A stretch of 64,000 bases of DNA from Desulfobulbaceae bacterium (GTDB lineage: Bacteria > Desulfobacterota > Desulfobulbia > Desulfobulbales > Desulfocapsaceae). Of this stretch, positions 26,786-33,161 are shown in pieces. Below the pieces are notes generated by a model. It was given only the letters and a program-made list of their open reading frames with translations, made no database searches and was not told where the DNA came from. Each line of letters opens with the position of its first letter. Position 1 is the stretch's first letter. The position numbers were made by a program, and so were the translations under genes. Where the stretch lies: the NCBI GenBank assembly GCA_003249645.1, contig QKIH01000090.1:1-64000 (forward strand), read 5' to 3'.

Positions 26786-28555
26786 TTATACTTCGATGAA
26801 GCCCCAATAGGGATACTGCACCTTATAGTCCGCAATTCTTCCCGGCGCCTGCTCCCGGCTTGCAACCAGCCATAACTGGTTGACCCGCTTATCCGGGTCT
26901 TCGACAAGCTGGCCTGACGGCCGGAAAATCATCGCATTGTCAGCGCTGTACTCAATATCACCGGAACCTTTGAACATCCCCATGTGAGGTTCATCCATAT
27001 AGGTATCGCCTCCACCGCGTGAAAGTTCTGAAATCACCAGGAAAGAAACCTGCAACTCATCACGAATCGACTCCATCTGTCTGAGCCATGCATCAATACC
27101 GGTGCGACGCTCGCTGAAATCTTTGAAGGGAAGTTTATGCAAGCTGTCGATCACAACCACCGGAAAATCTTTTCTTGTTTCATGGCGGATAAAATCAATA
27201 TGCCTGCGCATAATCTCAGGGCTTACCTTTCGATCATTGACCACCCTGAAATAGTAGAGCATTTTTTTCAGCTCAGCACTTTTTTCGGCAAATCGTTCTC
27301 TTTCTTCACCATTTAAATTGCCGCTTCGAAGCTGGCTGACCTTAAGGCTGCTCAATCGTGACAAGGTTCGCTGATAAATTTTCTGCCTGCCGTTTTCAAA
27401 GTCATAATACAGCACCGGAATACCACGAAGACTCATTTCAGTGGCAATCTGGATCATGAAGGCTGACTTGCCGACCTTCGGTGCTCCGCCGATAACATTT
27501 ATGCCGTGGACTCCCTCAAGGTGTTCATCCAGCTTCTTGAAACCGGTATGCATCGAGGTGTACTGCTCACCTCCTTCCTGAGTCATTCGCTGAATAAACA
27601 GGCTGTTTTCGCGCTCTGGACTGGCAAATGGTGAAAAGGCCCGCGAAGCCCCGATCATTTTCACAACTGCCTGCTGAAAGTTTTTCCCCTCATCTTTTGC
27701 CATCTGCCAGAGAGAATAATCTTTCGGTGTTGTGGCAGGCCAAGGCATCAGTCTGACTTTAAAACCTACTCTACTGGCAAATTGTCTGGCCGCGGCTTCA
27801 GATTCAGCACGGTTAATGGTAACGATGAAAATTGTTTCCACCTTCCCGAACTGCGCCGGATCAATCTTTTCAAAACCATCCAGGCTATGTACGGCAACCG
27901 CCGGAAAACCGAGTTGTTTAATGGTCAGCAGGTTATCTTCACCCTCGCAGAGAAAAATTGTCCCGTTTTCACAACGGCCAATCTCTTCAACGTTGTACAG
28001 CGGAGAATCAAGATCATAAAATTTTTCGTCACCATACCAGAAAGAATCTTCTGCACGATCAGGGAAAACACACTTTGCCGAATAGCAATTGCCATCTTCC
28101 CTGATGTACGGGTAAACAAGATACCTGCCGTTATAGCCGATCTTCATTGTATTCAGGACCGACGGAGATATTCCTCGCACGGTAAATCGCTCTGCGACAT
28201 CCGGCGTCAGTTTATCGGTGAACTGCACAAGTTCATGATTGATATTGGATGCCGGATATTTCACACCGGCAAGATACGGCGTGCTGTCCGGGTCATATCC
28301 GGGTGCTTTTTCAGGATCTATTTTGGCAAGTTTTGCAAACCAGAGAGGAAAACCGCCGGGAACACAGCGATTAGTGCACCTGAAGTAGCCATTGAAGAAG
28401 CCATCCTGATTCAGATAGATAACCAATTTACCTGCATTTTTTTTGCCACCAGACAGGCAGAACGGGCAGCCGGCTGTTAAGGTAGTATGTTCCAGTTCGC
28501 TCTTGTTCAGATAATCTGTATAAAAACGATGTGTTTTTTCACATAGTATTGCCAT
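26786..28555 (-). CDS. Zn-finger + TOPRIM-like + DnaB/RecA-like helicase protein (T7 gp4/Twinkle-like)
   Basis: CPFC...CTNRC zinc ribbon; IFLCEGEDNLLTIKQLGFPAVAV TOPRIM E motif; Walker A GGAPKVGKSAFMIQIA; Walker B VVVIDSLHKL; YYDFENGRQKIYQRTLSRLS. Confidence 0.8.
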   Translation of the reverse strand: MAILCEKTHRFYTDYLNKSELEHTTLTAGCPFCLSGGKKNAGKLVIYLNQDGFFNGYFRCTNRCVPGGFPLWFAKLAKIDPEKAPGYDPDSTPYLAGVKYPASNINHELVQFTDKLTPDVAERFTVRGISPSVLNTMKIGYNGRYLVYPYIREDGNCYSAKCVFPDRAEDSFWYGDEKFYDLDSPLYNVEEIGRCENGTIFLCEGEDNLLTIKQLGFPAVAVHSLDGFEKIDPAQFGKVETIFIVTINRAESEAAARQFASRVGFKVRLMPWPATTPKDYSLWQMAKDEGKNFQQAVVKMIGASRAFSPFASPERENSLFIQRMTQEGGEQYTSMHTGFKKLDEHLEGVHGINVIGGAPKVGKSAFMIQIATEMSLRGIPVLYYDFENGRQKIYQRTLSRLSSLKVSQLRSGNLNGEERERFAEKSAELKKMLYYFRVVNDRKVSPEIMRRHIDFIRHETRKDFPVVVIDSLHKLPFKDFSERRTGIDAWLRQMESIRDELQVSFLVISELSRGGGDTYMDEPHMGMFKGSGDIEYSADNAMIFRPSGQLVEDPDKRVNQLWLVASREQAPGRIADYKVQYPYWGFIEV

Positions 28556-28558
28556 TAT

Positions 28559-31500
28559 TTACCTTTTCGTCGACAAGCCCTGAGCTGTTTTGATAAATCT
28601 TTGTACCTGTATCGAATCCAGATTTTCTTCAAAACTTACGTGAACGGAATATTCATTCTCCATGACCAGATGGCCTCGAACAGCAACGACCATCCCGTCA
28701 AGAGGCACTACTTTGCCAGGAACGACCTCTGCCGATGACATGAAAACCCTTATCTGCTGCCCCAGGAGCACATGGGCCTGATCTTTCATGGACATCCGCA
28801 TATAAAAAGAAATCCCGCCGCGGGAAATATCAAACAGGTCCCCTTTAGCAGTGACATTTGTCGGCTGCCTTTCGGCATCAAGCACAACCGTTGCAACACG
28901 ACCTTCTATCTTCTTTCTTTCACTCTGGCGCCGGTCTTTTTTGGTGTTCTTGAAAAAGTCCTGCAGGGATTCATATTGCAGACAGAAATCGTGCAGCTTT
29001 GATTCCAGAGCCGGAAATTCCTCATTCCATTTTTTCTGCGAGTCAAGACGCAGCATGGAAACATCAGCATGGCCCATGGTTGAGGCAGTTATGGTCCAGA
29101 GTGAGGCATTGAAAAACGTGTCGACGCCAATAATATCACCCGGCCCGGCAATACGAACAAGCACTTCTGAGCTGCCTTTGTCACTGTAATGAAGCTTAAC
29201 CCTGCCTCGATTAACAAAAAACAACGCAGGCATACGGGAATGCTGCTCTATAATGACCTGACCGGCACCGTAACGGCGATGCTGCATTGAATGATAGAGT
29301 GTGCTGAACTCGTCTGAACTTAACACATCATACAGATCGCTCCACACTTCAATGTGACTGCTGTCAATGGCCTGGGATTTCTCCTCCTGAATGATCTCAG
29401 CTGCCTGAATAGCCTTAATAAGTGCCATTGGCGCGGAAGCTAGCAGCCATTCTCTTAGCTTATCAGCCTGGTCAAATTTACGCTGTCTGGCAGTCTGGGT
29501 GATAAGATCCATCACCAGATCAACCGCTTCATCATTTTTGCCCTGCGCAAACAACGCCTGAGCTTCCTTTTCTTTCGGTAAAAAGGTGATGCCAAGCGGC
29601 TGCGGTTTCGTCATGTTTTCAGCTGCAGACACTTTTTGCTCCTGTACGGGAGAATCTTCCTTCTTACCGTCTGGAGAAAGGCTAATTGATCCTAGAGTCT
29701 GCTCCGCTGCTTCTATAGCCGGTTTTGGTATTGCCTTATCGTTTTTACTTTCACTGATGAACGCTTGTAAGCAGTTACGAGCCTCCTCTGAGTGAGACTG
29801 GCTAAGCACAAGACAGATTTGGTCGAACCACGCTTTTGATGCAGCCGCCTTCAGGCCACCGTTGCGTTTGAGGAAATCAAGCAGTCTATCAACAACAGTT
29901 TCATCGCTGATCGGCCCAAGCGCTTCAAGCACCTGCACCTTCAGATCATCCGCAATATATTCAAGTACCTGCAGTAAAAGATCTTTCAGTTTGCTTCCAC
30001 CAATGAGCTTCAGACATCGAAGCGCTTCACTCTGAACCCGCAGATCGCTGTCACGCCCTATATCAGCCACTCTTTGCCCATGAGACGAATCACCTGTTGT
30101 CGCCAATAACTGCAGCAAATTTCTTTTCGCATACCAGGTCTGCTTCTGGTTAAGAATTTTCAGGATAGCAGTCGGAAGAACGGAGCCTGCTGTTTTCAGC
30201 AGATCAATCAGAGCAAAGCGGCTGTCTCTATTCTCTACATTGATCAGAACATTGAGAAGATGGACGAGCCCGTTCATGCCAAGTGCGATAAGCAGAGGAC
30301 CGGTGGGGTTCTGCTGGTTATTCTGTAGATAATCAGCAGCTAGACCATCAAGCAGATCAGGTGTTACCATCCTGTCCTGAATACGGGCTGCCATTGCTTT
30401 TACAGGAGCAGACTTCTTGATTTCACCGTTTCTGATAGCGGCAAACACATGTACAATCTTCAGCCCACTGCTGAAATCACCCTCCTGCAGGGCATAATTG
30501 GCAATTGAATGAAGCGCTTCAGCATATTTTTCAAAGAAGAAATCAGCCTGATCGCTGGTTTCAAGCCAGTTGATAAAGAAATCAACGTGATCAAAAAGCA
30601 GGGCTTCCCCCTTTCTCTTTATCAGCAGATCTGTCACCAGACAGAATGCACCATTATAGGTTTCAGCTTTTTCATCAGCGCTGTTATCGACCTTTTCCTG
30701 AATAAGCTGCAGGAGCTGACGTACCCGGTGAATTTCTCCTTCATTAAGGTACTTATCAATCTCTGCGGGCAGGAGATTTATCACCTCCTGACTGTCAAGC
30801 AACGCCAAGAGTTCTTCTCTTAGCTTATCGTCCCGTCCTGCATTCCCTGCGATATGAGAACTTCCGGCATCTTTTTTCAAGGAGCTGATCAGTTCAACAA
30901 TTCTTTCAAAGAGTTCTTTTCCTTCCTCGGTGTTCTTATCGAGTCTGTCGACCTGCTTACCAAGCATTTCAGTGAGCTCTATTCTCTGTTCCTTCGACAG
31001 CAACGCAAAAAGATTGTCCTGCAGCTGCATTCCAAAATCATTCTGCATAGGCTGCAGAAGAATGGCGCCATAAACTTCAGTCTCGCTGACCCGTTTAAAA
31101 AGCATAAGCGCAAACTGCTTAGTCATTTCCGGTTTTTTCTTGTCACTCAGGAGCTTGTCAAACCGGCTGACAGCCTCTGTCAAGGCAGGATAAAGCTCTG
31201 GCAAGGCATCTTCAAGCAAAGACGCGGAGAGGATTGATTGAAAAATCTGCAGCATCAGTGAGATTTTCTGCTCATCACGCAATTCAACAAATTCCCGGCC
31301 AGCTTTCTCGGAAAGAGAAGCATCTTCTAAAAAGGTCGGTACCAGATGTTCAGGTAAGGAAGCGAGATCGTGAAGAGCGATGAAACGGACTCTTCTTTTT
31401 TTCACAGATCTACTCTCTGTCGTTTTCTGGTCTTCAATAGATTCCGGAAAATATTGTGACATCCCCATGCTCTTGACAAAGGCGCGGCCGCCGCCTTCAC

Positions 31501-31900
31501 GTGCAATTTTTTCCTTACGGGATGTAAATATAAAAAGCAGTTTCCGAAAGACCTCTTCAGAGAAATCAAGATTCAGCTGTAAGTGCTGTAAATCAAGAAG
31601 TTCGAGTTGAAGAAAGAGAAAAAGTTCCCCGGCTGCCTTATTCATATCAGCAGGCAGCGGAATTCCCTGAACAAGCGGTTTTTTATCGACAAAACCGCAA
31701 TGGAGCTGATGATAGATACCTATGTAACTGGAAAGATCCTGTAAAGCACGTTTAAACGTAGCAGTAGCATGTGGCGCAGTTACAGGATACATCCTTGCCG
31801 CAAGTACAGCGTCGTTGAACGATTCTAAGGTTTCCAGAGCTTTTTCCAGTCGTTTTTCAGTCATGAGTCCCTGCATATAAGTAACAGAATACTCTATCAA
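28559..31900 (-). CDS. Large alpha-helical repeat (HEAT-like) protein with cyclic-nucleotide-binding and C-terminal PilZ domains
   Basis: 1113 aa; helical repeats; CNB-like RRYGAGQVIIEQHSRMPALFFVNRGRVKLHYSDKGSSEVLVRIAGPGDIIGVD; PilZ-like RRQSERK and DISRGGISF. Confidence 0.75.
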   Translation of the reverse strand: MIEYSVTYMQGLMTEKRLEKALETLESFNDAVLAARMYPVTAPHATATFKRALQDLSSYIGIYHQLHCGFVDKKPLVQGIPLPADMNKAAGELFLFLQLELLDLQHLQLNLDFSEEVFRKLLFIFTSRKEKIAREGGGRAFVKSMGMSQYFPESIEDQKTTESRSVKKRRVRFIALHDLASLPEHLVPTFLEDASLSEKAGREFVELRDEQKISLMLQIFQSILSASLLEDALPELYPALTEAVSRFDKLLSDKKKPEMTKQFALMLFKRVSETEVYGAILLQPMQNDFGMQLQDNLFALLSKEQRIELTEMLGKQVDRLDKNTEEGKELFERIVELISSLKKDAGSSHIAGNAGRDDKLREELLALLDSQEVINLLPAEIDKYLNEGEIHRVRQLLQLIQEKVDNSADEKAETYNGAFCLVTDLLIKRKGEALLFDHVDFFINWLETSDQADFFFEKYAEALHSIANYALQEGDFSSGLKIVHVFAAIRNGEIKKSAPVKAMAARIQDRMVTPDLLDGLAADYLQNNQQNPTGPLLIALGMNGLVHLLNVLINVENRDSRFALIDLLKTAGSVLPTAILKILNQKQTWYAKRNLLQLLATTGDSSHGQRVADIGRDSDLRVQSEALRCLKLIGGSKLKDLLLQVLEYIADDLKVQVLEALGPISDETVVDRLLDFLKRNGGLKAAASKAWFDQICLVLSQSHSEEARNCLQAFISESKNDKAIPKPAIEAAEQTLGSISLSPDGKKEDSPVQEQKVSAAENMTKPQPLGITFLPKEKEAQALFAQGKNDEAVDLVMDLITQTARQRKFDQADKLREWLLASAPMALIKAIQAAEIIQEEKSQAIDSSHIEVWSDLYDVLSSDEFSTLYHSMQHRRYGAGQVIIEQHSRMPALFFVNRGRVKLHYSDKGSSEVLVRIAGPGDIIGVDTFFNASLWTITASTMGHADVSMLRLDSQKKWNEEFPALESKLHDFCLQYESLQDFFKNTKKDRRQSERKKIEGRVATVVLDAERQPTNVTAKGDLFDISRGGISFYMRMSMKDQAHVLLGQQIRVFMSSAEVVPGKVVPLDGMVVAVRGHLVMENEYSVHVSFEENLDSIQVQRFIKTAQGLSTKR

Positions 31901-32037: not shown

Positions 32038-32622
32038 TTACCCTATAATACCCAGTTCGCGCAGCAATCCAAGCAGTTCTGTCATCGGAAGGCCTACAAC
32101 GTTGGAATACGAACCGCAGATCCGTCGCACCAACAGCCCCCCAATACCCTGAATACCATAGGCGCCGGCCTTATCAAGCGGCTCTTTTGTAGCTATATAG
32201 TTCTTCGCGGTCTCTAAAGTGATGCGGTCAAAAAATACGTCGGTCGTAACAAGACGGCTTGCAACAGTATCACTTGCCATTTTTACCACACAAAACGAGG
32301 TGTGTACCTGATGCCCCCTGCCGCTGAGCATCAAAAGCATTTCTTCGGCATGCTTTTCATTTTCCGGCTTTCCGAGAATGACGCCATCACAGACAACAAT
32401 AGTATCTGCGCCTACAACCCAGCTTTCCGGACTCTTCCTCCCGACTGCCATCGCCTTTTCACCGGCAAGTCGACAAACGTATTGTTCAGGTGTCTCACCA
32501 TCGTTGACCTTTTCATCAATATCGGCTGAGCATATTGTAAATTCAAGCCCTGCCTGCTCGAAAAATTCTTTTCTTCTCGGTGAAGTTGAAGCAAGAATCA
32601 GTGGTTCTTTAGTCACAAACAT
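32038..32622 (-). CDS. maf: Maf-family nucleoside triphosphate pyrophosphatase
   Basis: LILASTSPRRKEFFEQAGLEF; VVGADTIVVCDGVILGKP. Confidence 0.93.
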   Translation of the reverse strand: MFVTKEPLILASTSPRRKEFFEQAGLEFTICSADIDEKVNDGETPEQYVCRLAGEKAMAVGRKSPESWVVGADTIVVCDGVILGKPENEKHAEEMLLMLSGRGHQVHTSFCVVKMASDTVASRLVTTDVFFDRITLETAKNYIATKEPLDKAGAYGIQGIGGLLVRRICGSYSNVVGLPMTELLGLLRELGIIG

Positions 32623-32726
32623 TAAAATGCCTTCACACTCTGCTTGAAAACTGCTGGCAAAGTTGTTTTTTTTCAGTATGCTAAAAGTATCGATCGTGTC
32701 TGTTAATGTTTCTATGGAGTTATCGT

Positions 32727-33161
32727 ATGACTACAAGTGATTATATCTGTTCCCGTATCTTTCAAGCCGGAGAAATCATCATGGAGGAGGGGCAGAAAGG
32801 CAGCCATCTCTACCTGATTATCAGTGGTTCTGTGAATCTCTATCAGCATAAAGGTGACTCCGCAACACTCATCACAACCATGACCAGCGGCGATATTCTC
32901 GGTGAAATGGGTCTTTTATCCAATGAACCTAGAAATGCTACCGCAATAGCCGCCACCGAATGCAAAACGGTCATGATTCAGGATCAAGCACTTAATCACG
33001 CGCTACTCAATGACAGATTGCCGATTATCAAACCGTTGACCAGACAACTTGTCCTTCGGTATAAAGAAGCGGAGAAAGCCAATCGAGATCTCCAGCAAAA
33101 GATTACCAAACTTGAAACACGCATCGCGGAACTTGAGGAACAGTTAAAAAAGCCATCCTGA
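32727..33161 (+). CDS. Small cyclic-nucleotide-binding-domain protein with C-terminal coiled coil
   Basis: IFQAGEIIMEEGQKGSHLYLIISGSVNLYQ...GDILGEMGLLSNEPRNATAIA; coiled-coil tail; start refined to MTTSDY. Confidence 0.8.
   Translation: MTTSDYICSRIFQAGEIIMEEGQKGSHLYLIISGSVNLYQHKGDSATLITTMTSGDILGEMGLLSNEPRNATAIAATECKTVMIQDQALNHALLNDRLPIIKPLTRQLVLRYKEAEKANRDLQQKITKLETRIAELEEQLKKPS

Follow-up and report, generated by a model that had tools for sequence, protein, structure and literature searches.

Does a second-messenger receptor control a DNA helicase in the Desulfobulbales? The question is raised by two adjoining genes in a window of 64,000 nucleotides, the start of contig C141 of a genome which is 87% complete and comprises 182 contigs. 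Named relatives place the sequence in the class Desulfobulbia, a group of sulfur-cycling bacteria; the nearest of these relatives are Desulfocapsaceae. Both genes are on the minus strand. HEL (26786-28555) codes for a T7 gp4/Twinkle-like protein of 589 aa, PART (28559-31900) for a protein with an N-terminal domain, a HEAT α-solenoid, a CNB-like domain and a PilZ domain. The open reading frames, their coordinates, strand and 3-bp spacing (28556-28558) are as given in the original prediction. The 1113 aa predicted for PART correspond to the open reading frame from TTG 31900; ortholog comparison favours ATG 31864 as the true start, i.e., a protein of about 1101 aa. An AAGG-type sequence resembling a ribosome-binding site lies inside the end of PART (28556-28568 including the gap, minus strand). 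Together with the short gap it is consistent with co-transcription of PART and HEL.

The locus is surrounded by host genes: znuA-like, zur/fur, maf (32038-32622, minus strand), fabL-like, DUF362 and serA-like. None of them is a phage integrase or plasmid gene, in agreement with the initial description of a zur, maf and fabL-like neighbourhood. No structured RNA or riboswitch from Rfam scored at gathering thresholds over 15000-45000. A small CNB protein of 151 aa with a C-terminal coiled coil is encoded on the plus strand (32706-33161; cNMP_binding, 1.4e-21) and adjoins maf in several relatives.

What kind of protein is HEL? A Pfam profile search matched DnaB_C at residues 335-550 (1.5e-28, above cut-off), and the phage primase/helicase family phrog_239 was matched over the full length (residues 28-549, 4e-32). 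An alignment of 23 sequences, with relatives down to 37% identity, was the basis of an AlphaFold model (mean pLDDT 84, pTM 0.56). The best PDB matches are T7 gp4 (5ikn, 1q57, 6n9v), followed by human Twinkle and DnaB, which bears out the assignment as gp4/Twinkle-like; the modest TM-scores (about 0.3-0.6) presumably reflect a different domain arrangement. Predicted viral structures, primase/helicases, are also matched over the full length.

The order of domains is that of gp4 and Twinkle, i.e., zinc ribbon, TOPRIM and RecA motor. In the zinc-ribbon region (28364-28468, minus strand; C30xxC33 ... C60xxxC64) all four cysteines are invariant in 12 close relatives; in the 23 relatives C30, C60 and C64 are invariant and C33 is conserved in at least 90%. 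The RecA/DnaB-type motor (26792-27568, minus strand) displays the Walker A sequence GGAPKVGKS, E387, the Walker B sequence VVVIDS, SELSRG, KGSGDIEYSADNA and an Arg-finger-like SREQ. Walker A and B, the catalytic Glu and the arginine-finger-like residue are intact throughout the 23 relatives, residues K363, E387, D470 and R567 are invariant, and the DnaB H3/H4 motifs are conserved. The TOPRIM domain (27746-27961, minus strand) has kept EGEDN and has lost acidic catalytic residues. We take the key residues of the T7 gp4 primase to be E157, D207 and D209. In a profile alignment to T7 gp4 the DxD aligns with non-acidic residues; DxD is absent in all 23 aligned relatives, and in some of these the Glu of EGE is Asp or Gln. 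HEL thus lacks the set of TOPRIM Glu and DxD metal-binding residues found in the T7 gp4 primase. The predicted layout of Zn-finger, TOPRIM and RecA domains stands, with the correction that the TOPRIM is devoid of its catalytic residues. Given the loss of the acidic TOPRIM residues across all 23 sequences and the intact ATPase motifs, HEL should, from its sequence, be a primase-dead helicase.

At the position of the DnaB Gln and the T7 His, HEL has an invariant Glu (SELSR), and weaker matches extend to RadA and KaiC-like families. These features would suit a switch protein of the RecA/KaiC superfamily that binds DNA or RNA and is driven by ATP, with a non-replicative role and no helicase function. 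We consider such a switch distinctly improbable, since the gp4 architecture is full-length, the zinc ribbon is retained, and the arginine-finger-like and H3/H4 motifs are conserved.

As a primase-dead helicase HEL differs from each of its known counterparts. It shares with T7 gp4 the domain order and the best fold match; unlike gp4 it is a chromosomal host gene, sequence identity is only about 16-22%, and primer synthesis is not expected in view of the lost DxD. Metazoan mitochondrial Twinkle is described as a protein built like gp4 whose N-terminal half is primase-dead (PMC3610141). On that description the predicted properties of HEL are alike, yet HEL retains the zinc-ribbon cysteines, and its bacterial host already possesses DnaB and DnaG. 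With bacterial DnaB it has the RecA motor motifs and Pfam DnaB_C in common, whereas its N-terminal half is zinc ribbon and TOPRIM instead of the DnaB N-domain. The separate DnaB and DnaG genes of this genome are on contigs C152 and C130, respectively; HEL is thus an addition to the standard set.

Is HEL a resident of these chromosomes or a visitor? The 93 genomes searched in the family of the window yielded 82 copies or fragments, essentially one per genome, with full-length copies 52-62% identical. Across the class Desulfobulbia, 164 of 258 genomes carry HEL, again essentially as a single copy; the genome searches sample species, and many of the genomes are incomplete drafts. Phylum-wide, HEL was present in 17 of 395 sampled genomes, and four families not belonging to the order are among its carriers. 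When 85,462 species were scanned with strict peptide patterns, which could miss remoter relatives, 207 HEL relatives were returned; for the best 80 of these 207, every lineage named in a title is Desulfobulbales. The HEL tree splits Desulfocapsaceae, Desulfobulbaceae and the out-of-order families, a pattern consistent with vertical descent. In one genome (G076:C1:645044-648332) the complete gene is closely followed by a partial second copy that spans residues 362-588 at 63% identity.

Helicases of the gp4 type are typical of phages, as phrog_239 illustrates, and HEL has many viral fold matches. A remnant or cargo of a prophage or another mobile element would account for both. The order-wide, single-copy and vertical distribution, the exclusive presence of host neighbours and the lack of close relatives in phages, plasmids or viral contigs render such an origin extremely improbable. 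Phage and plasmid matches reach only about 23% identity, and matches in viral contigs are confined to the DnaB-like core (28-31% identity). A prophage or plasmid origin of the present locus was rejected on these grounds. The view of HEL as a chromosomal, non-phage gene is upheld, and the recognisable prophage remnant which would have contradicted it did not turn up. A role in anti-phage defence was also considered and rejected; PADLOC matches were weak and partial.

PART is composite. Pfam matches above cut-off are HEAT_2 (1.6e-6), cNMP_binding at residues 875-951 (2.7e-10) and PilZ at 989-1101 (7.5e-6); the structural model has a pLDDT of 78 and a pTM of 0.40. All features are on the minus strand: the HEAT/α-solenoid region at 29681-30790 (residues about 371-740), the CNB-like domain with a degenerate phosphate-binding cassette (G..GVDTFFNASLWT) at 29006-29278, and the PilZ domain (DRRQSER ... 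DISRGG) at 28598-28936. The motif of PilZ receptors, RxxxR and (D/N)xSxxG, is present. As originally predicted it is intact, being conserved to 92-100% in 65 orthologs (R990, R991, R995 and G1029 100%, D1024 98%, S1026 92%). This near-invariance and the 37 GGDEF matches in the genome make binding of c-di-GMP by PART likely.

The situation differs for the CNB-like domain, for which cAMP/cGMP sensing had been suggested. Compared with cAMP-bound GlxR, GEL is changed to GVD and PRTS to LWTI in the pocket; in the 65 orthologs W935 is conserved to 97% and T936 to 100%. Since both residues of the phosphate-binding cassette that contact the cyclic nucleotide, Glu and Arg, are replaced, binding of cAMP or cGMP is unlikely, and that suggestion is not supported. 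The host may nevertheless produce cAMP, because class III nucleotide cyclases are present in the genome. PART resembles the YcgR class of PilZ receptors in RxxxR and DxSxxG and differs in that it combines PilZ with a HEAT solenoid and a degenerate CNB. Bdellovibrio Bd1971, a CNB-EAL protein (PMC6717892), likewise has a CNB module in a c-di-GMP signalling protein, and the PART profile matches its CNB. Bd1971, however, keeps the pocket Arg and binds cAMP; PART has Trp at this position, and PilZ instead of EAL.

The paralogs of PART share the SxWT and RRxxxR/DxSxGG signatures. Homologs in Desulfobulbaceae (L162:4013-9055, L158, L160) range from about 480 to 1680 aa with N-terminal changes and retain CNB and PilZ. 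Pseudogenes were considered for some PART copies and rejected, the in-frame stops being terminal stops in the copies checked.

Do PART and HEL form a unit? In the family of the window, 74 of the 82 HEL copies or fragments have PART directly upstream in the same orientation, with gaps of 7-636 bp by match ends (median 105). Across the named loci, gaps between reading frames are -41 to 263 bp in 55, and six have an insertion of 2.5-3.4 kb; several of these insertions contain a HerA-like gene in convergent orientation. Both Desulfocapsaceae and Desulfobulbaceae have conserved the pair. Chance is ruled far out as PART-HEL recurs in dozens of genomes, and the gene order on which the original prediction depended is thus found in relatives. 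In some Desulfobulbaceae (L150:7409-9826 and similar loci) the gene between PART and HEL codes for a convergent HerA/DUF87-type ATPase, and some relatives have tandem PART-type genes of about 1130 and 620 aa before HEL (L079, L083; e.g., L079:4510-9931). Downstream of HEL no conserved third component was found; trmFO, a cytochrome, HerA/DUF87 and others vary by clade.

The order of the genes is conserved, yet either gene occurs without the other. In genus g13 (L101, L110, L116) HEL follows straight after maf and full-length PART is gone; this genus is nested in the HEL tree among PART-bearing Desulfofustis relatives. Conversely, PART is present without HEL in three genomes, the closed G548 and the drafts G075 and G091, with another gene at the place of HEL. 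In out-of-order families and in cable bacteria HEL stands beside unrelated genes, and outside the order it is without PART. In Candidatus Electrothrix (cable bacteria; L141, L153) a Uma2-type putative endonuclease gene is near or directly upstream of HEL. Both genes are missing from some genomes that are small or incomplete; this does not discriminate, because one deletion or missing sequence could explain it. With natural separations in both directions, PART and HEL are probably not an obligate two-part machine.

Two controls point the same way. maf, the conserved neighbour upstream of PART and HEL, is in place in 42 of 43 informative PART-HEL loci and is thus equally faithful. A PART paralog, a HEAT-CNB-PilZ protein of roughly 800 aa, is equally tight before dus, the tRNA-dihydrouridine synthase gene, in conserved order in the same family (L185-L189, L193; e.g., L186:5811-9294). 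HEL evolves more slowly than PART (identity about 58% versus about 30%). The comparison of distance trees for co-evolution was not decisive: HEL-PART given maf correlated with 0.67 and HEL-maf given PART with 0.42, and in a subset of 22 loci the values were 0.92 for HEL-PART and 0.93 for HEL-maf.

These data bear directly on the proposal that PART gates the helicase. PilZ would bind c-di-GMP, and the solenoid would bind HEL and switch its motor. The adjacency conserved across two families, the intact PilZ motif and a solenoid suited to protein binding speak for it; moreover c-di-GMP has been linked to chromosome organisation in Myxococcus via CdbA/CdbS (PMC10313047). Against it stand the independent losses in both directions, intact HEL without PART in other families, the equal fidelity of maf, the paralog equally tight before dus, and the faster divergence of PART. 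An obligate sensor-gated helicase is disfavoured for these reasons. Gating as such we regard as unlikely, and a resulting coupling of lifestyle signals to replication or repair is no likelier. That PART in Desulfobulbales physically controls a primase-dead Twinkle-like chromosomal helicase, so that a second messenger directly switches a DNA motor, is quite unlikely. Of the original idea, the adjacency stands and the obligate dependence is disfavoured; optional regulation of HEL by PART may exist.

On balance we rather favour a resident helicase, HEL, and a separate c-di-GMP receptor, PART, which do not form an obligate complex. The sequence data show the architecture, the retention and loss of motifs, the conservation, the pattern of vertical descent and the separability. 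A ring helicase of the gp4/Twinkle type would have taken up residence on the chromosome of an ancestor shared by Desulfobulbia and some related families. Besides the cell's DnaB and DnaG, HEL would most likely use ATP to translocate on single-stranded DNA and act as a helicase. The zinc ribbon and the TOPRIM of HEL would no longer prime and would probably help to bind or position DNA, as is the case for metazoan Twinkle. HEL is dispensable in several genomes, and we infer from this that fork rescue or repair would be its likeliest use, rather than routine replication. PART, a member of a paralogous HEAT-CNB-PilZ family, would be an α-solenoid scaffold with a ligand-degenerate CNB and a presumably working PilZ site. 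maf, PART and HEL appear as a conserved block in which PART and HEL are probably often co-transcribed; control of HEL by c-di-GMP via PART, if any, would be optional and clade-specific. As a counterpoint, the persistence of PART upstream of HEL in the family and again in Desulfobulbaceae exceeds what chance synteny might produce, and the HEL-PART distance correlation survives the control for maf, though in the 22-locus subset the HEL-PART and HEL-maf values are nearly equal.

The PART-HEL locus is genuine and conserved. Secure as novelties are a primase-dead helicase of the gp4/Twinkle type that is resident on bacterial chromosomes and the receptor family HEAT-CNB*-PilZ; second-messenger gating of HEL by PART is possible, adjacency being its sole support. 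In the open-access literature no paper was found on either family, which is not proof of absence, and nothing on point was found for the PART-HEL pair or for control of a helicase by c-di-GMP. The HEAT-CNB*-PilZ family is the second finding accessible to biochemical tests: its c-di-GMP site is intact, and SxWT, which is almost invariant, replaces the cNMP Arg. Primase-dead gp4-type helicases are already known from animal mitochondria as Twinkle. A chromosomal HEL family beside DnaB and DnaG across most of the class would exemplify a bacterial route to this primase loss, and would offer a tractable relative for asking about non-replicative roles of primase-dead Twinkle.
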